This document shows positions 24,469-38,285 of a DNA stretch of 64,000 bases, one piece after another. The notes under the pieces are model-generated. The model was not told the origin of the DNA and did not search any database. It saw only the letters and a list, made by a program, of their open reading frames with translations. How positions within the stretch are numbered: the stretch's first letter is position 1; each line of letters begins with the position of its first letter. This stretch comes from Bolinopsis microptera. Lineage: Eukaryota > Ctenophora > Tentaculata > Lobata > Bolinopsidae. The position numbers were made by a program, and so were the translations under genes. Location of the stretch: positions 17,654,475 through 17,718,474 of the forward strand of contig NC_087077.1 of NCBI RefSeq assembly GCF_026151205.1, written 5' to 3'.

Positions 24469-25436
24469 TTAAGGTTTATGTAAAACCGTATTGTTCGGCT
24501 GCAAAACAATTAAAGAACCAAAGTCACGTGATAATTTTTGGGCGAGCGAATTAGTAAGAGTCCTAAAACTTTCGTCAGACCACTCTGTCCAGTTTCCTAC
24601 CAATTATAAACGCTGTTCACATATTATTACATTCCCCCCTACAACTGCAACTTAGCTAAAATTAGGTATGGTCAACTGTTATGATTCACTTTACACTTTA
24701 CCAGACAGAGTGGTCAGAAATGAAGTAATAAATAATTAGACCACGTAGAAATAAGCAACTACATAGTAGCGTTGAAAATGTAGGCTAATAGCCGATTAAT
24801 ATAGTATTAGTAAAATTTGTAATTTTTAAGGTACTTAACTACGCTTTTAAACTTGTCTAACCCATATAATAACAAAGTTACTTGATTACTTACAAAACCC
24901 CCGTAGAACTGCCGGGAGGGTATTGAAATCTAAAACTCCAATTTAAACAAATTTAATCACATCTCCGGTTGAACAAAAAGGTCGAATTGTGTGGTAAGAA
25001 TTTAGCGAAATATTTTAAGTTTTGAACATATCCAAATATCGGATATCGATATTATCTTAAAGGCTTCTTCGACGAAATCGGAGGCTGGGAGCATAGGGGA
25101 TATTGCAGCTAAAAAAGCCGAATTCAACAGAAATGGTTCGACTGTAAGTCAGTAAATACTACTAAAGGTCACGGTTCTCGTCAGTTACTGTACATTATCC
25201 ATAATATTCGATACAGCACTCAGTTTTAGTGCGTAACTTCTGCGTCTCCATTGTAAAACTTCTCGCTGTATCCACTGAAAAAGTTATTCATTGATATCAT
25301 TATTCCTTTCTGTAAATAAAAAGTGTATTCTAGAACCGCAATGAATAGAAGTAACAACTCATTTATTGTTATTATTCGGCACATGGCATAGTGCAGACAC
25401 AGTGGAAAATATCTGGATTTTATTCTTGCATAAAAG

Positions 25437-25594
25437 CGATAATGCAATTATCGCGTGTTTATCGCCCAATATGCGATTATCGCGTGTTTATCGCCTAACA
25501 TGCGATTATTGCGCACGATTATCGCCTAACATTGGCGATTATCGCTAAATGCACGATAATCGCCATTAAATAGTGATAATCGCTAAAATCTGCG
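25437..25594. repeat. Left subterminal palindromic array (deleted copy)
   Basis: About a dozen copies or half-copies of CGATTATCGC / GCGATAATCG in both orientations, spaced irregularly at about 10-20 bp. They are candidate binding sites for a transposon-encoded protein. Confidence 0.8.
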
Positions 25595-26558
25595 ATGATA
25601 ATGCAATTGTGAAATGATGAGTTAATTTTGACATACTGTGAGTCATATACTGCATCAACATTCAACACTGCACTGAATCAAAATTATGGTTGAACAGCAA
25701 TAAAAAATATTATATTTGATATATATATTAAACCTTGTGCCTGACGCCGCGCGCAGCGGATCCTGCATTTTCATTTTGAGTTTGACCCTGGCCTCACAAT
25801 TACATTTTACAATCAAACTATAACCTTCAAAGGCGAAAGTAAACACAAGCATCAACATTTCATATTTCCAATTTCATTCCTCTTCCCCCTGTTTAACGGA
25901 CGCAAACGCTATTTACGAATGACCCCTGGGCCCCTACGACAAACCCGAAACCATAAACATAAACTTCTATTCAATTTGTAATTCGAAAATTATCTCATAA
26001 TTCCGTTATGGAAATAAATCTTATACATGAATAAGAATCTGAATCAATACATATTGGTCATTCTGTCTGCCGATGGCAATTATATCAATATTATATTCAA
26101 ATAGTACACGGAGTTCATTACTGCATTTCAAGTTTGACACGCGCGGTGAGCCGCGCACTTTTGTTGGATTTGAACTATACGAAAATCAAATTATGAATCG
26201 AGCGCTACTAGGGCGCTCACTTAGCGCTTAGTTACCAGCCAACTTTACTTGTTATGATTTGTACCTCTTAGTGTGACCTGGATCAGAATATTTTCTTCGA
26301 CTTCAGTTTTCAAAAGTGAGAGTGCTTGGATCGAATATAGATATATCTCTGTAAGAGTGTATAAGATGTTACAACTTACACACGTGCGGTAATCGGTATC
26401 ATGTCACCAAGTGACTTGTCTATTGTCGTTACCAATGGCCACACTATTCACCTAATACCGTAATCTGCTTGACAGCTCGATCGAATTAAATGATTGCATT
26501 TGTTGTTATAAAGAACGAAATTAAGCACGTTCATATCGATTATCACATTAGTGAGAAC

Positions 26559-26962
26559 ATGAGTGGAAGCAGGACAGAAATGTTCGCAGGGTTAACTGTA
26601 ACACGACAGTTAAGACCACTTGGTTCCGATGGCTTCCGCAGGAGATGTTGGTTGTAAGTTATTATACATCGAACTTGTTTGTTTCCTCTTACCTACATTT
26701 TTGCTGACTCGACCTGCAATCTGCACGAGTTGTAAGTGAAATTATATAAATCTTCTAATTGTAGGTATATTAAAGTATATTAAAATGTAGGATTTTTTCC
26801 GATTTTGACCCGGGGATATACTTTAATATACTTTAATATGGTTGGCCCCCCCCCCCCCCCCCCCCCAAATTTTACTCTTCAGGCACATGAGAGCCAGGTT
26901 CCCTACTCTCGAAGCGGTTCCCGAAATAAAACGAGCTGTGGCACGTTTCTGCCATATCGAGG
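26559..26962 (+). pseudogene. First two exons of the transposon accessory gene, remainder deleted
   Basis: Exons 26559-26653 and 26883-26962 match the first two exons of the intact gene at 30215-31952, with the same ATG and splice sites. The gene is then cut at about 26996, where the deletion joins transposase 3' sequence. Confidence 0.8.
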
Positions 26963-26996
26963 GTAAATAAGTTTTTATCACTTGCCATTGCCTCAC

Positions 26997-27580
26997 TACC
27001 GAAAGTTTGGTCAGTCCACATCGGTGAAGGTATTGTTGTTATCTCTTATAGCTTTACCTGTTGTCTCCAACCCCTAAATAGCCTGGAAGAAAGTTATTTT
27101 CATGACATATTTATAAGAAACTCCGGCCCAACCGAACTCTTAAAATTGCAACATCATTTCAACACCACCTCCACCAGATACATCTCCTTGAAGACCACTT
27201 TTTGGAGCAGATACAGCTCTGGGGGATGTTTTCTGGATCTTTCAATGAGCAAGGTGGTGAGAGTACTCACTCCCTTTTTAAGAATCACGAACACATGACA
27301 AGTAAGAAATAACTTGGGCTTTTAGAATTAATTGAGTTTGAGATCAAATTTTGATTTCCACACGTTGAATAGTAGTGTGTAAGGGGTCGTTCATATATTA
27401 CTTAACCATCGAAGGTGAGGGGGAGTACATAATATGTGGACGACCACCACTTTAATACAGAAATGTAAGCAACATAAATTTTCAGACCATGTTCGTAATG
27501 ACGAAGACCGAGTTGTGAAAAAGTGCGAGCTAGCAACACGGAAATACCTGTTGAAAGTGAAATCCAAGCTGTGTGACTGA
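26997..27580 (+). pseudogene. 3' remnant of the transposase gene
   Basis: It holds the end of transposase exon 11 (26997-27029) and copies of the last two exons (27178-27301 and 27486-27580), including the His-x4-His and Glu motifs. It lacks the first ten exons and is not a functional gene. Confidence 0.85.
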
Positions 27581-28822
27581 AATGGGTCAATCATGATGGA
27601 TTTAGTGTTTGGGACAATCTGCTATATGCCTAAAATTGAAAGATTGTTAATTTGGTGATGCTTCACCCTCTGTTCATATTTTCTACTTGATCAATAATGA
27701 TATTCGCCACATATTATGTAAAACGCCGCTTATGTTTTGCCATTAAAATTTTTTCGTTATAGTAGTGACTGCGACTGAAACCGCGCATCACGCAAGTTTT
27801 TGTCGCCGCGCGAGGGTGATTCAATTTTGTCCACTTCGCCATAATTCTCAGAGGATGTAATTTGACGTGTGCGGGACAATTTTGAGCGCAAGGAATCACT
27901 TGAATCGAAGATAACGATTGAGCTGACAATTTCTCCGGTAAAAATTAGACCTTAGATAACTGAATTGGGATGACATCGGAAATAACTCTGATGCGAGCAG
28001 GAATACACTATGTCATACTCATAGCAGTAATACTTAGACGTGAATATTAATATCCGATGGATCAAATTAGTGTATATGTTATCATTATTATATATATAAA
28101 GTGTGCCTCACTGGGGCACCCTTAAGTAACAGTTCCAGCTCGATAGGCCTCGTAACCGGGATGGATAGAGACAAACGAAATACATCATCTCGTCACAAGC
28201 AATCAGATCTAAGTTAAACGATAAGGCCAGGACATACTATGAGCATTGAATTAACTGTCAAAATGGTAACCTGAGCCCTAGAGGTGATCACATGCTATAA
28301 GCCTAACGGAAAAGTATTCTAAAAATATAAATCTAATCGTTAAGTTAAACACATTTGAAAGCGGCTGTCAGATAATATAAACGGTTCGGGATGATGGCTG
28401 TCGAGGTTCGGGCATGACGCGCCCGGCCGCACAATAAGCGGTGACTAGGGAAGTCACAACAAAAAGTCCCCTCTCAGTCTAATCTGAGCTCTCGATATTT
28501 TGGAAGAATTCTGGATTCTAGCTAGAAATAGGTAAATTAGTCAACGAACATGAGATGAATCATATATTAACTTAAAGATGAAAACCCGCTAATCAACGTT
28601 GACCAAAATTAAATTATGTGGGCTTACAATTGAATCATATAGAGTAACTATTTGATCATTTGACGTAGCCATTTTGTCAACGCAGCATTTTGTCAATTTG
28701 TCAACTCTAAATATTCGACTGCTGTTAATCTTTTAACTTTAATTATAAACTTATGTTACCACTGAAAATCTGAAATGGCTCCAGTAGATCTGTAGATGTG
28801 GCAGCTAGGTTCTCGTTATATA

Positions 28823-29008
28823 CTGCGATAATCGCAAATTGAGGCGACAATCGCACGATAATCGCATAATGAGGCGATTATCGCACAAGGGGGGGCGATA
28901 ATCGCAAAATGAGGCGATAACCGCGCGATAATCGCAAAATGAGGCGATAATCGCACAAGGAGTCGATTATCGCGCGATAATCGCGAGGGAGTGCGATTAT
29001 CGCTGCAA
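28823..29008. repeat. Right subterminal palindromic array (deleted copy)
   Basis: About a dozen GCGATAATCGC / GCGATTATCGC units, often followed by AAAATGAG or ACAAGG. It is near-identical to the array at 37522-37706 of the intact copy. Confidence 0.8.
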
Positions 29009-29053
29009 AAATAAAATCTGCGAAATGGCCAACATTTTCCACTGTGCAGATAC

Positions 29054-29100
29054 CACAGTGGAAAATATCTGGATTTTATTCTTGCATAAAAGCGATAATG
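29054..29100 (+). repeat. Left transposon end with 12-bp heptamer-box spacing
   Basis: CACAGTG, then 12 bases (GAAAATATCTGG), then the box ATTTTATTCTTGCA, then AAAA and GCGATAATG. CACAGTG equals the V(D)J RSS heptamer. The deleted copy has the same end at 25398. Confidence 0.85.
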
Positions 29101-29252
29101 CAATTATCGCGTGTTTATCGCCCAATATGCGATTATCGCGTGTTTATCGCCTAACATGCGATTATTGCGCACGATTATCGCCTAACATTGGCGATTATCG
29201 CTAAATGCACGATAATCGCCATTAAATAGTGATAATCGCTAAAATCTGCGAT
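29093..29252. repeat. Left subterminal palindromic array (intact copy)
   Basis: CGATTATCGC / GCGATAATCG units in both orientations, the same as the array at 25437-25594 apart from single-base changes. Confidence 0.8.
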
Positions 29253-30214
29253 GATAATGCAATAGTGAAATGATGAGTTAATTTTGACATACTGTGAGTC
29301 ATATACTGCATCAACATTCAACACTGCACTGAATCAAAATTATGGTTGAACAGCAATAAAAAATATTATATTTGATATATATATTAAACCTTGTGCCTGA
29401 CGCCGCGCGCAGCGGATCCTGCATTTTCATTTTGAGTTTGACCCTGGCCTCACAATTACATTTTACAATCAAACTATAACCTTCAAAGGCGAAAGTAAAC
29501 ACAAGCATCAACATTTCATATTTCCAATTTCATTCCTCTTCCCCCTGTTTAACGGACGCAAACGCTATTTACGAATGACCCCTGGGCCCCTACGACAAAC
29601 CCGAAACCATAAACATAAACTTCTATTCAATTTGTAATTCGAAAATTATCTCATAATTCCGTTATGGAAATAAATCTTATACATGAATAAGAATCTGAAT
29701 CAATACATATTGTTCATTCTGTCTGCCGATGGCAATTATATCAATATTATATTCAAATAGTACACGGAGTTCATTACTGCATTTCAAGTTTGACACGCGC
29801 GGTGAGCCGCGCACTTTTGTTGGATTTGAACTATACGAAAATCAAATTATGAATCGAGCGCTACTAGGGCGCTCACTTAGCGCTTAGTTACCAGCCAACT
29901 TTACTTGTTATGATTTGTACCTCTTAGTGTGACCTGGATCAGAATATTTTCTTCGACTTCAGTTTTCAAAAGTGAGAGTGCTTGGATCGAATATAGATAT
30001 ATCTCTGTAAGAGTGTATAAGATGTTACAACTTACACACGTGCGGTAATCGGTATCATGTCACCAAGTGACTTGTCTATTGTCGTTACCAATGGCCACAC
30101 TATTCACCTAATACCGTAATCTGCTTGACAGCTCGATCGAATTAAATGATTGCATTTGTTGTTATAAAGAACGAAATTAAGCACGTTCATATCGATTATC
30201 ACATTAGTGAGAAC

Positions 30215-31952
30215 ATGAGTGGAAGCAGGACAGAAATGTTCGCAGGGTTAACTGTAACACGACAGTTAAGACCACTTGGTTCCGATGGCTTCCGCAGGAG
30301 ATGTTGGTTGTAAGTTATTATACATCGAACTTGTTTGTTTCCTCTTACCTACATTTTTGCTGACTCGACCTGCAATCTGCACGAGTTGTAAGTGAAATTA
30401 TATAAATCTTCTAATTGTAGGTATATTAAAGTATATTAAAATGTAGGATTTTTTCCGATTTTGACCCGGGGATATACTTTAATATACTTTAATATGGTTG
30501 GCCCCCCCCCCCCCCCCAAATTTTACTCTTCAGGCACATGAGAGCCAGGTTCCCTACTCTCGAAGCGGTTCCCGAAATAAAACGAGCTGTGGCACGTTTC
30601 TGCCATATCGAGGGTAAATAAGTTTTTATCACTTGCCATTGCCTCACTTCTTATTAGGAACTAGAGAAGTTCTCGCAAAACATCATGGCTTAACAAATGA
30701 CAACTCTGATCGATATATCTTTTGTAAAAATCGTTCTTTAATCATTAAGGAGATGAATACATTTCAGAAAGTGGCGTACACTCTGATTGGGTGAGGGAGG
30801 TCCAGCTACGATATAAGAAATATGCTGTTGACAAGAAATGCAAGAGGAAGGGGGCAGCAGTGAAGCAGAGAGCAGCATCGGATCATCCCCCAGTTACTGC
30901 TGCTGGTACCCAGACAGATCCACTGCACGCATTGCACTGCAAGGTAAGCTGCACCTGTATCACATATGAACAATCAAATTTCATCTGTCATGATATGAGA
31001 TCCACTGAATCCCTGTTGAAACAAAGCTGTTAAAATAGTGATATTCAGGATTGTGTGACCAATGCCATGCGGCATGTCCTGGACGAAAAGGCGGCGGAAA
31101 TTGCGGAGATGAGGACCAATCTCCTCCTCCACCAAGCACCCTCTCCGACCCCAGCACCCGTCAGGTAGCATAGCAGAATAAATATGACCCGGTGTCCAAT
31201 GTTTTTGAAATGGTTGAAAATCGTCATTTAGTATGCAGTTTAATTCCATTGTAATGTTATTGCCAGGGTTATGTAATATGTTTGTACCCAGGCTAACAAT
31301 ATTTAGTCAAATTTAAAACTGATATATAACACATCTAAATATTGCAGCAGTATCCTGATCAGAACCCCTGACCCCATCCGCTCTCGCTCGCGAACTCCCT
31401 CCGTCAGTTCAAATGGGCCAGGGTAAATTTTTAAGCCATAAAAGTAAATGAGTTAATGTATGTGGTGTTTTGGTAAGTCAACTAGTTATTTTATTGATAA
31501 GAAAGGACTCTTATGAAGATTGGCGATGCGTTATATCATTTGTGATGAAATCTTAACACCATATTTATTTCAGACCGTCCCGTTCCAGTCACGGTACACC
31601 AGTCTGTGCTGTGCAACCACGATCACGGATTAATTCAGCAGCATCCAGGTATTAGGCAGTGAACCCCCCTCCTGGCTCTCCCTCCCTGGCCCTCCCTCCC
31701 TGGCTCTCCCTCCCTGGCTCTCCCTCCCTGGCCCTCCCTCCCTGGCTCTCCCTCCCTGGCCCTCCCTCCCTGGCCCTCCCTCCCTGTCCCTGCCTCACTC
31801 ATTCTAATTTCAGTATCAGTGCGGACAACTGGGGGCCCGAATCTGTCATAGAAGCCAGAGTCCGCATGGCTGCTGAGAGGAAAAAAAAGGCCTCTCAAAA
31901 GAAGCTCACTGCGACTGAGATTTTCCGACAGCGTTGGGGAGGTTCAGTTTAA
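30215..31952 (+). CDS. Transposon accessory gene: basic Ser/Arg-rich protein of unknown function
   Basis: Seven exons, all with consistent phase and GT-AG borders: 30215-30309, 30534-30613, 30750-30943, 31049-31164, 31348-31422, 31574-31648, 31814-31952. The product is 257 residues. ATG is the start because it opens the frame after GAAC and the two following junctions keep phase. The N-terminal third has many aromatic and Arg residues (GFRRRCWLHMRARFPTLEAV). A basic stretch follows (RYKKYAVDKKCKRKG), then AAGTQTDPLHALHCK with a Cys/His pair, a short amphipathic helix (HVLDEKAAEIAEMRTNLLLH), a Pro/Ser/Arg-rich linker (IRSRSRTPSVSSNGPG) and a basic C-terminal helix (ARVRMAAERKKKASQKK). I recognise no domain, and it is not a kelch protein of the RAG2 type. 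Being the only other gene in the element, it may bind the subterminal repeats or partner the transposase; this is inference. Confidence 0.75.
31670..31797. repeat. 14-bp C-rich minisatellite in an accessory-gene intron
   Basis: About nine copies of CTCCCTCCCTGGCT / CTCCCTCCCTGGCC, inside the intron between exons 6 and 7 of the accessory gene. The minus strand is a run of GGG blocks that could form G-quadruplexes. Confidence 0.9.
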
Positions 31953-32529
31953 CTATAAAACTTGTAAATACACTGAATTTATTATTAATTTTTGAAAAAT
32001 TATGTGATGTTTGTTCCGTGATACTAACTTTTTTTTGTGACACTAATTCATTAACTCTATTTGTGATACTAATTTATTAACTAATTTTATGATACCAATT
32101 TTGTGACACTAATTTTGATAGACTGTGGGATACTGAAGGGAAAAGAAGCAGTTCTAACGAGCTCTTCTCAAACACAAGGATATATCTTGTGAACTTGGCT
32201 GGTATATATGAAACATTTGACACGGAGTTGTAGAGTGAGCTATGTGCCTCGCCAGGGCTAAAGTAGTGAATGACCTTGCTGTACGGCAAGTTAAACAAGG
32301 ATCTGAAACTACTAGGTTCCGTACAGGCTCAACTCTACACCCGTGCCAATATGTTCATATGAAAGCCTCTTGATTTATACTAATAATTCTTTAATTCTTT
32401 TTGCTCGCTTTCTTTTCACCCTTCCCCCTCTCTCGATATTTCATCAATTATCACATCCCAACATTTGAAATGTTTTCAAGTAAAGTTTAGCCTCAAGAAC
32501 TTAACCTTCACGGACATTATAGTAACAAA

Positions 32530-35500
32530 ATGCTTTGCCCGTGTGTTCTCTGTCAACAAGAGAATGAATTGTCCGACCGTACGGTAAAGGAACATCTGCT
32601 CTCATTCGGTCACATGAAGAAAACACTGTTGGCTGATTTTATCAAACATACCGATCCGGGAGACAAACTTTTTCACCACGTGCTGAGGTAATTTACTAAT
32701 AAGACACAGGCTGTCTGCATCTTTGACTATAAAACATCATCAGTCGTAACTTGAGTAGGATCAGAGTGGGTTGAGTGTAGCACTTTAAAAGGATATTTAA
32801 GAGCTGAACTTGTGAATATTAAACATCTGAAGGTGATCATCCGTGTAATCCTGCAGGTCGTTACTAGATAAGTGCTTTGAAGAGGGAGCAACCTTTGAGG
32901 TGAAGGGTTCACAGGGAAAACCCCTCCTCATCACCACTATCATTAAGCCGCACAAGGAAATAAAAACTCCTGCTGACAGTGTTAAAAGGAAGCACACTCA
33001 TGTCTTCAAGGATATAGTAGAGAGCCAGGTATCCTGAATAACGTTATCGGTAATAAGTTAAACTGTATATCACTTCCGCAGTTTGCCATCATAGCCATAC
33101 TGAAACTGAACGAATCCCTACAGGCAATTTAGTTCAATCAACATGAATATTTGCAGGCTGAGTCAAGCTGTTCAAAATCTAATGACTCTGATATCGAATC
33201 AGTGACCAAACGGATCCGAACTGCGGAGTTAACATCACTCTCTAAAGAGCAGCGGGAGTATGTACAGGCGTTGGCTGGCGTTGACTGTAAGAAACGAATT
33301 GATGCTCTTCATGTTGCTATGTTCAAAGCTGAATGTAAGTTGTTAAGAACGATACAAATTGTCATTATCATTACAACTTAGCGGGTGGAAAAGTTAATTC
33401 TTAGTGTGCAATAGATTTCATCGCAATAAATTAAATGCTGACTCAATTTTTAGCTAACACGGGGACAGCCAATGTACGAAACAACCTGCGGCCACTGCTA
33501 AAAAAATATGATATAAAAATGGAATCAGAGAAGGAAATCAAGTCAATGGAAGAATTATACACCGTGAGTGCTCAGTTGAACTCAAAACCAATTATATATC
33601 ATTTTGGTGTCATGGCGTACTAGCATATAGCATAGCACAACCCAGATTTTGAAATATAGAATATATTGTACATCAAAAATTAACATCATTCATGTTTTAA
33701 GGTGAACTATATGAGTGCAATGGTTTCTCTTTCCCATAAAGCTGCAGCACATGATAAAAATGAAACTAAAAGTGGTGAGCTGTTAGCAAGACGTACCCCA
33801 GTAGCCTACTGTGATGGACAGGAACTGCTAACCAAAACACTTATAACCTTGAAGAATACCGGTATTTCAAATTTCTAGAGATTATAGAGCTGTTTACAAA
33901 AAATTAATTTGATTTAAATAGGTCAAGGTGGGCAGTTCTTTTAGCGGTTTTTATCACATAGTTCATTAACAGCCAGCTGAATTCTATATATTCCAGGCCA
34001 GTTAGATGTGGGAACTGACAAAACTATACATGTTAAGCTGTTTGTAGACGCAGACACGAGCTCCACTAAAGTGGCAGTCAATGTGCTAAACCAGCCTTCG
34101 TGTAACAGCTCGTATGCCCACCCAATGCTGGTGTACACCGAAGCTCCGGACCATCGCAGGAACATGGAGGTCATATTTAAGGTATTTCTTCATGAAATCT
34201 AGACTTCAACTTGAGCTTATTTGTATTAACAGCTTACACTTTAAAAACTGGACAGGCATGAGACAGATAACATTACAGGTGGTTAACCGGGACCTACCAC
34301 AGCTCAAGAACTTTGTCTTCTGTGGAGCACATGTGAAGATGATTCTCTGTGCAGACACAAAGGCACTGTGGGCTATGCTGGGTATGGGCAGCAATGGGAC
34401 GTTCCCCTGTCCACTGTGCGAGGTACATAAAGACCTGATGCAAGTACCCAGAAGCCAGAGAGCTCTCTGCAAGCCCCGAACTTTTGCGGGAATTATGCAG
34501 AACTTTGATGCTAATATGAGGTACTTATAAACTTATAATACCAGTCATTAACTCGCTGATTGCAGCTCCTTCATTTCACAAAGTACAAACATTTATCTCG
34601 ATGTATATTGTATACCATGTATGTATTTCGATAGATGTATACCATTTCTGTAAACTGTTAGTATCGAGTTTTTCCACATCAGAATGACTCAGTGTAACCC
34701 GAGATCCCAAGCCCAGTTTATGAATGTTGCTTCACGACCCATCACAGACTGTTTCGGGGAGGATTCTGATTATCTCATAAACTGGGTCGCTGTTCCGTTC
34801 TTGCACATAGTAAGTGATCGAAGCTCACAGTTTTTTATTCGAACACCGCTCATGCTGTTCCTGATATGTGGCAAATAGAACTAGGTACTAGAATTATTTG
34901 ACTGATTGTCATGACTCTTGATACTTCCTTTAGAACATCAAAGTCGGGACTTTTCTGTGGACAGAGTACGGTAAACTGTGCGAGGAGATAGACTTTGTAC
35001 TCGCTTGCAATGTGGCAGACGGGTTTCTTCCCAACAGCTACAGCAGTACGACAGACTTTGGAGCCATGATTCTGCGCATCGAACAAGGTAATGTAGATTC
35101 ATCGATGAATGTATCACTTCATTATTGAAAAATTGGAGGCTTTGCAAACTGATATATAATGAGTTGAAGAAAATAAGTGTGGCACTGTACATTTTAGGTA
35201 ACCGTGTGGCCTCGAAGTGCAACAGTGGGCCCCTTTCCTCGAAGTATGAGCAATATTTGAGGGGCATCAATGTCACTCCTGAGGCATACCATGGTGTGTC
35301 CCTGACCGGCGTGAGAGCAGGATATTTGGTTAAAGCCAATCACACTCAATTTTGGACAGACCACTTCTATAAAAACGAGTAAGTTCTGTGAGATCAGTGC
35401 GATTTAACTCATGTTACTAATGGTTGTCGTTTATAGTGAAATAACTACCACTTTTTACTTGTGATTGAAGGCTAAAATTCTGTATTGATAACGAGCTTCT

Positions 35501-36279
35501 GTGACTGACCGATTCTGTGTTGACAGGAAGATAAGACCACAGGACAAGCTGCACTTTCAGCAACGGCTCCTTGCACTGGATCGCATTAAGTCCTCGTATA
35601 GAGATCTCTTAGTTCTCGGTGGCAAAAGTGGGAAAGTGAAGAGTCCCCGTGAGATCGAAACTCTTGTCAAGGCCAGGGACCTCTTCTTGGCAGAGTACCG
35701 AAAGTTTGGTCAGTCCACATCGGTGAAGGTATTGTTGTTATCTCTTATAGCTTTACCTGTTGTCTCCAACCCCTAAATAGCCTGGAAGAAAGTTATTTTC
35801 ATGACATATTTATAAGAAACTCCGGCCCAACCGAACTCTTAAAATTGCAACATCATTTCAACACCACCTCCACCAGATACATCTCCTTGAAGACCACTTT
35901 TTGGAGCAGATACAGCTCTGGGGGATGTTTTCTGGATCTTTCAATGAGCAAGGTGGTGAGAGTACTCACTCCCTTTTTAAGAATCACGAACACATGACAA
36001 GTAAGAAATAACTTGGGCTTTTAGAATTAATTGAGTTTGAGATCAAATTTTGATTTCCACACGTTGAATAGTAGTGTGTAAGGGGTCGTTCATATATTAC
36101 TTAACCATCGAAGGTGAGGGGGAGTACATAATATGTGGACGACCACCACTTTAATACAGAAATGTAAGCAACATAAATTTTCAGACCATGTTCGTAATGA
36201 CGAAGACCGAGTTGTGAAAAAGTGCGAGCTAGCAACACGGAAATACCTGTTGAAAGTGAAATCCAAGCTGTGTGACTGA
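32530..36279 (+). CDS. DDE transposase with the RAG1/Transib/CMC signature
   Basis: Thirteen exons with consistent phase: 32530-32687, 32857-33028, 33157-33334, 33454-33563, 33702-33861, 33997-34181, 34279-34520, 34683-34809, 34934-35087, 35198-35378, 35527-35728, 35877-36000, 36185-36279. The product is 695 residues. The N-terminus is a C2H2 finger (Cys5, Cys8, His22, His28). First catalytic Asp: probably D277 in VKLFVDADTS. It is followed by HPMLVYTEAPDH at 301-312, which resembles the P-L-x-L...E-x-x-D-H stretch after D600 of mouse RAG1. Second: D347 in CADTKAL, with C365-P-L-C368 18 residues later (RAG1: D708, C727, C730). Then H625-x4-H630 (RAG1 H937, H942). The catalytic Glu is E647 or, more likely, E651 in NEQGGES (RAG1 E962 in GNES). 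The short C-terminus ends in a basic helix. It should cut DNA at the CACAGTG ends. An earlier in-frame exon or start is possible. Confidence 0.85.
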
Positions 36280-37521
36280 AATGGGTCAATCATGATGGAT
36301 TTAGTGTTTGGGACAATCTGCTATATGCCTAAAATTGAAAGATTGTTAATTTGGTGATGCTTCACCCTCTGTTCATATTTTCTACTTGATCAATAATGAT
36401 ATTCGCCACATATTATGTAAAACGCCGCTTATGTTTTGCCATTAAAATTTTTTCGTTATAGTAGTGACTGCGACTGAAACCGCGCATCACGCAAGTTTTT
36501 GTCGCCGCGCGAGGGTGATTCAATTTTGTCCACTTCGCCATAATTCTCAGAGGATGTAATTTGACGAGTGCGGGACAATTTTGAGCGCAAGGAATCACTT
36601 GAATCGAAGATAACGATTGAGCTGACAATTTCTCCGGTAAAAATTAGACCTTAGATAACTGAATTGGGATGACATCGGAAATAACTCTGATGCGAGCAGG
36701 AATACACTATGTCATACTCATAGCAGTAATACTTAGACGTGAATATTAATATCCGATGGATCAAATTAGTGTATATGTTATCATTATTATATATATAAAG
36801 TGTGCCTCACTGGGGCACCCTTAAGTAACAGTTCCAGCTCGATAGGCCTCGTAACCGGGATGGATAGAGACAAACGAAATACATCATCTCGTCACAAGCA
36901 ATCAGATCTAAGTTAAACGATAAGGCCAGGACATACTATGAGCATTGAATTAACTGTCAAAATGGTAACCTGAGCCCTAGAGGTGATCACATGCTATAAG
37001 CCTAACGGAAAAGTATTCTAAAAATATAAATCTAATCGTTAAGTTAAACACATTTGAAAGCGGCTGTCAGATAATATAAACGGTTCGGGATGATGGCTGT
37101 CGAGGTTCGGGCATGACGCGCCCGGCCGCACAATAAGCGGTGACTAGGGAAGTCACAACAAAAAGTCCCCTCTCAGTCTAATCTGAGCTCTCGATATTTT
37201 GGAAGAATTCTGGATTCTAGCTAGAAATAGGTAAATTAGTCAACGAACATGAGATGAATCATATATTAACTTAAAGATGAAAACCCGCTAATCAACGTTG
37301 ACCAAAATTAAATTATGTGGGCTTACAATTGAATCATATAGAGTAACTATTTGATCATTTGACGTAGCCATTTTGTCAACGCAGCATTTTGTCAATTTGT
37401 CAACTCTAAATATTCGACTGCTGTTAATCTTTTAACTTTAATTATAAACTTATGTTACCACTGAAAATCTGAAATGGCTCCAGTAGATCTGTAGATGTGG
37501 CAGCTAGGTTCTCGTTATATA

Positions 37522-37706
37522 CTGCGATAATCGCAAATTGAGGCGACAATCGCACGATAATCGCATAATGAGGCGATTATCGCACAAGGGGGGGGGCGAT
37601 AATCGCAAAATGAGGCGATAACCGCGCGATAATCGCAAAATGAGGCGATAATCGCACAAGGAGTCGATTATCGCGCGATAATCGCGAGGGAGTGCGATTA
37701 TCGCTG
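37522..37706. repeat. Right subterminal palindromic array (intact copy)
   Basis: About a dozen GCGATAATCGC-type palindromes, partner of the left array. The array is interrupted by a run of eight G. Confidence 0.8.
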
Positions 37707-37747
37707 CAAAAATAAAATCTGCGAAATGGCCAACATTTTCCACTGTG
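37690..37747 (-). repeat. Right transposon end with 22-bp heptamer-box spacing
   Basis: Read inward on the minus strand: CACAGTG, then 22 bases starting GAAAATGTTGG, then the box ATTTTATTTTTGCA, then GCGATAATCGC. The box matches the left end except for one base, but it sits ten bases further from the heptamer. Confidence 0.85.
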
Positions 37748-37984
37748 ATACGTACAGTGATTGGGCCGCGCAATATATACGCGCGCGCATTTTGAATGCA
37801 TACAATCAGGTTACAAGCAATGCGCGTTACTCACTAATCCACCCAAACACAACAGTTCAGAAGGACTTTCTACAAAACTGTACCACATAAAATGATCGAA
37901 AATCTAGTGTTTCAGTAAATAACTTAGAGTATATTTTCGATTTTATCCAGATCCTAATATATGATTTATTTGAAACTTTCCATA

Positions 37985-38100
37985 TAGTTATATGGCCATA
38001 AGACTGATAATCTGTGCAAGTTTGGGCGAATTTCTTTGTGCCAAATTTGAGATATCACTTCAAACTTGCACAGATTATCCGTCCCATTGCCATAATACTA
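37985..38100. repeat. Imperfect hairpin element, about 115 bp
   Basis: TATGGCCATAAGACTGATAA, then TCTGTGCAAGTTTG, returns in reverse complement after a short loop, with a few mismatches. Confidence 0.7.
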
Positions 38101-38216
38101 TCTCTAACAGTTTTTGTGGCGAATGTGAAATGTGAATTTTGCCCCCATCTTGTTATTTGCAGATTATTGAGGTATTACCATTATTAATCTATATTATTAA
38201 ATATGTAATATTTTAT

Positions 38217-38285
38217 TTTTCTTGACACACCAGTTTCCTGACACACCAGTTTCCTGACACACCAGTTTCTTGACACACCAAACAT
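38217..38285. repeat. 17-bp tandem repeat, four copies
   Basis: Unit TTGACACACCAGTTTCC, repeated with slight variation. Confidence 0.85.

Follow-up and report, generated by a model that had tools for sequence, protein, structure and literature searches.

The recombination signal sequences (RSSs) cut by RAG1/RAG2 join a CAC at the cut to a second element, which lies either 12 bp in or roughly a helical turn beyond that, and RAG accepts only unlike pairs of such ends. According to a 2021 review (PMC8355894), asymmetric transposition of the 12/23 type is known outside V(D)J recombination only in a few Transib families, and the RAG-like ends of one oyster are asymmetric. Most Transib families are symmetric (PMC8289069), and rather little sensitivity to asymmetry is expected of invertebrate RAG-like elements (PMC7204232). 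Amphioxus ProtoRAG has bipartite asymmetric ends, with a fixed 27/31 spacing that matters for activity (PMC8289069). For Chapaev transposons (CMC group) and for ctenophores, no fixed asymmetric spacing was found in the accessible parts of the matches listed by literature searches that covered Chapaev and the CMC group, transposable elements in ctenophores and asymmetric ends, which left most subscription papers outside their coverage. Here we describe such a layout in the ctenophore Bolinopsis microptera, in a 64,000-nt stretch of contig C6 of the 264.65-Mb genome (the window), where positions 29054–37747 hold what is apparently a recent copy of a DNA transposon (family A) with an AT-rich box set 10 bp further in on the right than on the left.

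The full-length element comprises 8,694 bp on the forward strand, with CAC...GTG ends and a 4-bp duplication, ATAC, at 29050–29053 and 37748–37751. Its two ends open with the same outer terminal repeat, CACAGTGGAAAAT (29054–29066, forward strand; 37735–37747, reverse strand), followed by the box core GATTTTA, which starts at base 19 from the end on the left (29072–29078, forward strand) and at base 29 on the right (37713–37719, reverse strand). An extra 10-bp module, CCATTTCGCA, is present at the right end only (37720–37729, reverse strand). The original prediction for this locus had read the left end as CACAGTG, 12 bases and ATTTTATTCTTGCA, and the right end as CACAGTG, 22 bases and ATTTTATTTTTGCA, with longer boxes at 29073–29086 and 37705–37718, and ends, box and spacing are all found in the window as it placed them. 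Where the edge of the box is drawn is a matter of choice, so that the firm fact is the 10-bp offset between the left GATTYWA core (base 19) and the right one (base 29). The box pattern occurs four times in the window (expected 0.30; at least four in 0 of 100 shuffles), at the four ends of element A and of an internally deleted neighbour of the same family (25398–29046, forward strand), which had correctly been said to share both ends. CACAGTG occurs 14 times (6.35 expected; 1 of 100 shuffles reaches 14), and these ends account for 4 of the 14.

Since near-identical copies cannot test function, divergent relatives were sought. Families B and C are related to A, most exon matches being ~50–89% identical. 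Matching duplications located the opposite ends of B in elements of 664 bp (TATT) and 6,633 bp (GCCG), and that of C in a 3,361-bp element (AGAT); a C-type right end at C6:7530280 had no left end within the 9.9 kb examined. A whole-genome protein search returned more distant relatives, 32–39% identical to A, and the family D protein used as query gave matches to A and E that were mostly 33–43% identical. Ends of D and E were searched for in three 10-kb stretches by CAC/GTG termini, at least 10/16 end-to-end identity and a 3–5 bp duplication, the box not being used. For each a clear top candidate was obtained with 13/16 identity, a 6,567-bp element on C8 with duplication AACG for D, and a 4,979-bp element on C11 with duplication GTCT for E. 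Both carry GATTTWA at bases 19 and 29, and in all five families with both ends found (A–E) the first base of GATTYWA is number 19 at the left end and number 29 at the right end, the core reading GATTCTA at the left end of B and GATTTAA at both ends of D. The 12/22 asymmetry is a property of family A and of four further families, exact in all five, and its proposed status as a family trait holds.

This register is preserved while the outer sequence diverges. Outer bases 4–18 are identical at 5/15 positions between A and D, 4/15 between A and E and 2/15 between D and E, and the corresponding figures for bases 19–25 are 6/7, 7/7 and 6/7. When 20 bases are compared from the box inward, a shift of +10 gives the best alignment of left with right end throughout, with 15 matching bases in A and in C, 13 in B, 20 in D and 19 in E. 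In other DNA taken as a control, the box stood at base 19 after 1 of 2,063 CACs, at base 29 after none and anywhere in the first 45 bases after 37, while 0 of 31,341 CAC/GTG pairs reached 13/16 with a 4-bp duplication; shuffled D and E ends gave ~1–4 in 10,000 per end. All five families have 5'-CAC...GTG-3' termini (a search criterion for D and E), and 4-bp duplications also flank two B copies as well as D and E, the latter two chosen with the 3–5 bp duplication criterion.

A genome-wide test of the spacing, the check originally proposed, bears it out within the closer families. The genome was scanned for CACNGTGGAAAA followed by GATTTTA after a free gap of 0–30 bp, a pattern hence limited to A–C-type ends, and 46 of the 48 matches fell at exactly 12 (n = 18; 11 A-type and 7 C-type ends) or 22 (n = 28; 12 A, 9 C, 7 B), with one match each at 6 and 28, the last being a left end of type B in which GATTCTA stands at the 12 position as well. 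A control with the reversed pattern gave 2 matches genome-wide. Neighbouring convergent pairs within 20 kb among the 48 matches were 12+22 in 16 of 16 cases, and a 4-bp duplication was present in 9 of the 10 A/C pairs whose flanks were compared. The remaining pair, C11:5192622–5200178 (AACC/AGAA), also differs in giving a single block of protein match (49–197) where other A copies give two (49–119 and 110–197). Ends that the pattern does not match lie outside these counts: the left ends of B, which read GATTCTA, the C10 left end without base 1, L036 (a left end at C7:16813585, 80% diverged), and two altered right ends of B, L055 and L066, which are single decayed copies with a changed terminal base.

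The likeness to 12- and 23-RSSs that had first drawn attention to this locus stands in part. The offset of 10 bp is real; the long spacer is 22 rather than 23, and the right-hand spacer is conserved in sequence, unlike an RSS spacer. Right bases 19–35 are invariant across A, B and C, so this 'spacer' is not neutral, and as it is itself conserved it may contain a second site. The exact V(D)J heptamer proves coincidental, CACAGTG being present in A and C only, with CACGGTG in B, CACAGGT in D and CACGGCT in E, so that only CAC is conserved and CACAGTG itself is ruled out as the signal. Equating the box with the RSS nonamer ACAAAAACC is likewise ruled out in A–C, where the best match was 7/9 on either strand at no consistent position (D and E were not scored).

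The transposase gene lies on the forward strand at 32530–36279 from the annotated ATG (exons 8–20), its joins agreeing with the models of two matched Bolinopsis microptera proteins, P0002 (LOC134814667; exons 8–16) and P0001 (LOC134816823 isoform X2; exons 8–13 and 16–20); the start of exon 19, at 35877, follows P0001. Possible upstream exons 1–7 (30215–31941, forward strand), outside the public models and read by hand from GT/AG sites only, are in phase with exon 8. Three forward-strand exons carry the putative catalytic residues: exon 13 (33997–34181) the probable first D (FVDADTSSTK), exon 14 (34279–34520) the probable second D (CADTKALW) with the C(2)C motif CPLC, and exon 19 (35877–36000) the H(4)H motif HLLEDH with the probable E (NEQGGESTH). 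An alignment of D, E, A and B has CPxC, HxLEDH and EQGGE in all four rows, resembling the C(2)C and H(3–4)H motifs that Chapaev has between the second catalytic D and the E (PMC12730594), and DUF1280 (PF06918), which PMC3985635 assigns to Chapaev, matches the family D protein P0021 with 31.2 bits and P0023 with 38.3 bits (cut-off 25). Judged by motifs in family A and by Pfam in family D, the predicted transposase is Chapaev-like, within a clade that includes Transib and RAG1, and it looks distantly related to the enzyme that assembles antibody genes. A further likeness to Chapaev lies in the CAC...GTG ends and the 4-bp duplication, 3–4 bp being the Chapaev hallmark (PMC4079192).

Other searches were less informative. 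PF12940, the RAG1 catalytic domain, was not listed at E≤10 or, in the search with P0021 and P0023, at E≤1, HMMER filters dropping most matches above ~0.1; a Chapa or RING domain, sought through Pfam only, gave no such match, and the presence of a Chapa model in the library is uncertain. Sequence searches of solved structures returned one unrelated chain each time at E≤10. Protein searches based on short exact words, for which absence is not proof, gave named relatives that were all from Bolinopsis (P0001, P0002, P0021) and none from other animals, together with P0010 of the window and 19 unnamed contig proteins. A structure model of the window's own transposase (P0002) had a mean pLDDT of 43 and was not used. 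For the family D model, Foldseek gave 471 matches at E≤10 and none at E≤0.001; it aligns best with RAG1, BbRAGL and HzTransib chains, a tentative sign, from a low-confidence model and a helical stretch, that the fold may resemble that of RAG1.

CACTA elements (En/Spm) likewise have CAC ends and dense short subterminal repeats, and usually make 3-bp duplications; we know of no matching fixed-spacing box among them. A match of the transposase described here to PF13963 scored 21.7, below the cut-off of 27.7, and is a further point of likeness to CACTA.

On balance, we lean towards regarding these elements as Chapaev-type cut-and-paste transposons whose ends are built differently and kept so, the transposase recognising a bipartite end and pairing unlike ends. 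Each end consists of the terminal CAC, a family-specific outer repeat and the AT-rich box GATTYWA, and the extra 10-bp module shifts the right-hand box inward by about a helical turn, leaving it on the same face of the DNA. The transposase, RAG1-like by its sequence, may contact the CAC at the cut and, through another domain, the box, and the paired complex would take an end with the short spacing together with one with the long spacing, which would make pairing correct and oriented. By analogy with RAG, a complex holding one straight end and one that bears an additional turn would admit unlike pairs alone. The dense subterminal repeats probably load more transposase.

Several observations weigh against this reading. 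The agreement of all 16 convergent pairs is also expected from plain copying of one parent element, and the pairing of near-identical copies was rejected as proof of a rule, such agreement following from copying. A decayed B-type right end, L066 (C11:11679798), has its terminal CAC changed to CGC and, by hand count, three extra bases before the box. The five-of-five result leaves aside a second D-like copy (L072), in the third of the 10-kb stretches, without ends of the quality seen in D and E (best 11/16), three further relatives (L073, L074, L075) without such ends (best with a duplication among those listed 10/16), and three families that were not read (G, C6:11064208; H, C2:1494876; I, C5:12658295). 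The assignment to Chapaev is uneven, as DUF1280 scores 21.9–23.7 in family A, under the cut-off, and matched one of the four alignment rows, which are cut-down pieces (E 0.002), and for the family B transposase piece there was no Pfam match at all. When RAG2 is missing, mouse RAG1 does not favour 12/23 (PMC8355894), so a lone transposase need not enforce such pairing. Finally, the extra 10 bp on the right are conserved, and the asymmetry may be one of site number and not of spacing.

This last point leads to the strongest competing account, possible but in our estimate the less probable one, in which the right end has two box-like sites (bases 20–28 and 29–35) and the left end one, the asymmetry being in the number of bound domains and 12/22 a by-product. 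The invariance of right bases 19–35 in A, B and C speaks for it, as does the module itself, which is identical in these three families and box-like in D and E (CGATTTTGCA and CGATTTTTGC, respectively), where GATTT stands at both 20 and 29. When the left box is slid along the right end, the second-best match lies at offset –5 (19/42). The +10 register is clearly better (35/42 against 19/42, and 20/20 in D), marking the inner box as the true counterpart of the left box, and in A–C the outer copy reads CATTT.

A second account, which we consider unlikely, traces the pairing of a 12-type end with one of the 22/23 type back to the common ancestor of Chapaev, Transib and RAG, from which V(D)J recombination would have inherited it. 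The grouping of Chapaev with RAG1 and Transib (PMC4411706; PMC3985635, whose clade II comprises RAG1 and DUF1280), the 12/23 ends of some Transibs (PMC8355894) and the chains with which the family D model aligns best are in its favour. It sits poorly with the symmetry of most Transib families and the 27/31 spacing of ProtoRAG (PMC8289069), with RAG1 lacking a 12/23 preference when RAG2 is absent, and with the mismatch of box and nonamer, the spacer of 22 and the unconserved heptamer, and the resemblance in fold comes from a model of low confidence and from a helical stretch. The described relatives also differ from the ctenophore families in other respects. Transib shares CAC ends and a related DDE core, but makes 5-bp duplications (PMC4411706) against 4 bp here in 9 of 10 pairs; ProtoRAG shares bipartite, asymmetric ends, but differs in spacer lengths and sequences, in its RAG1-like and RAG2-like genes and in its 5-bp duplication (PMC8289069). 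Gene reading and searches in element A covered the transposase alone.

The Drosophila P element and piggyBac also place the terminal repeat and the internal binding site at asymmetric distances and need one of each end; they belong to unrelated superfamilies with unrelated sequences, so end asymmetry can arise on its own. Ancestry, which the original prediction had raised beside independent origin, is indistinguishable here from convergence, and a link by descent to the 12/23 rule is at most a possibility.

A role for the box and the extra module in host-factor binding or transcription at one end (5' promoter as opposed to 3' side), and none in bringing the ends together, appears quite unlikely. 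The ends of a single-gene element do have different duties, and other subterminal sequence differs between the family groups. Yet the box is found at both ends and keeps a fixed register relative to the cut even though the families differ in their subterminal repeats, and a promoter element need not hold a base-exact distance to the terminal CAC. That one odd element was merely copied often, its asymmetry having no function, fits the near-identity of family A copies, whose agreement means little, but is extremely unlikely in view of D and E, which hold the exact register with transposase matches ~32–43% identical and diverged outer ends. Only a recent exchange that gave D and E the ends of A would rescue this reading, and such an exchange is itself unlikely given the differing end sequences.

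In a ctenophore, an animal far removed from the bilaterians, a comparable layout is constant in five families that belong to a related group. This hints that unequal pairing of ends may be older than V(D)J recombination or may occur more widely. These apparently recently active elements offer a natural system for asking if this enzyme clade generally resorts to pairing unlike ends, and if such pairing predates RAG2. That pairing of a short with a long end, one helical turn apart, is an ancient Chapaev–Transib–RAG property already present in transposons of early animals seems rather unlikely; if true, the 12/23 rule of antibody genes was inherited and not invented with RAG2 in vertebrates.

Beyond the boxes, both ends of element A carry clusters of CGATWATCG, with four copies on the left (29130–29218, forward strand) and nine on the right (37525–37703, reverse strand). 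All 13 lie at most 230 bp from an end, and the remaining 51,670 bp of the window contain none; their spacings are mostly near multiples of 10 bp (10, 20, 30), with no significance test made. The same place is occupied by CGATWATCG in A–C, CTAGCGGA in D and GATAGGAT in E, and as these repeats differ between family groups they are not what maintains the 12/22 layout.

The deleted neighbour, with its own duplication CAGA at 25394–25397 and 29047–29050, matches the full copy at 99.56% and 99.85% identity in two shared blocks, so that movement looks recent. It has lost ~5 kb of the transposase gene and retains both ends and the subterminal clusters, making mobilisation by an enzyme from elsewhere possible. 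Only 7 bp (CAGATAC, 29047–29053) separate the two elements, the CAGA and ATAC duplications overlapping by one base, and ~3.3 kb ahead of the window there is a right end of family B (C6:17651140–17651174). Rfam gave no matches in the window at gathering thresholds. A 14-bp tandem repeat, CCCTCCCTGGCYCT, occupies 31666–31799 within an intron of the transposase gene. Directly beyond the right end, a 41-nt inverted repeat (37984–38101; 85% complementary, 36-nt loop) is possibly another small element, and a short tandem array with a 16-bp unit, TTTCYTGACACACCAG, follows at 38218–38280.

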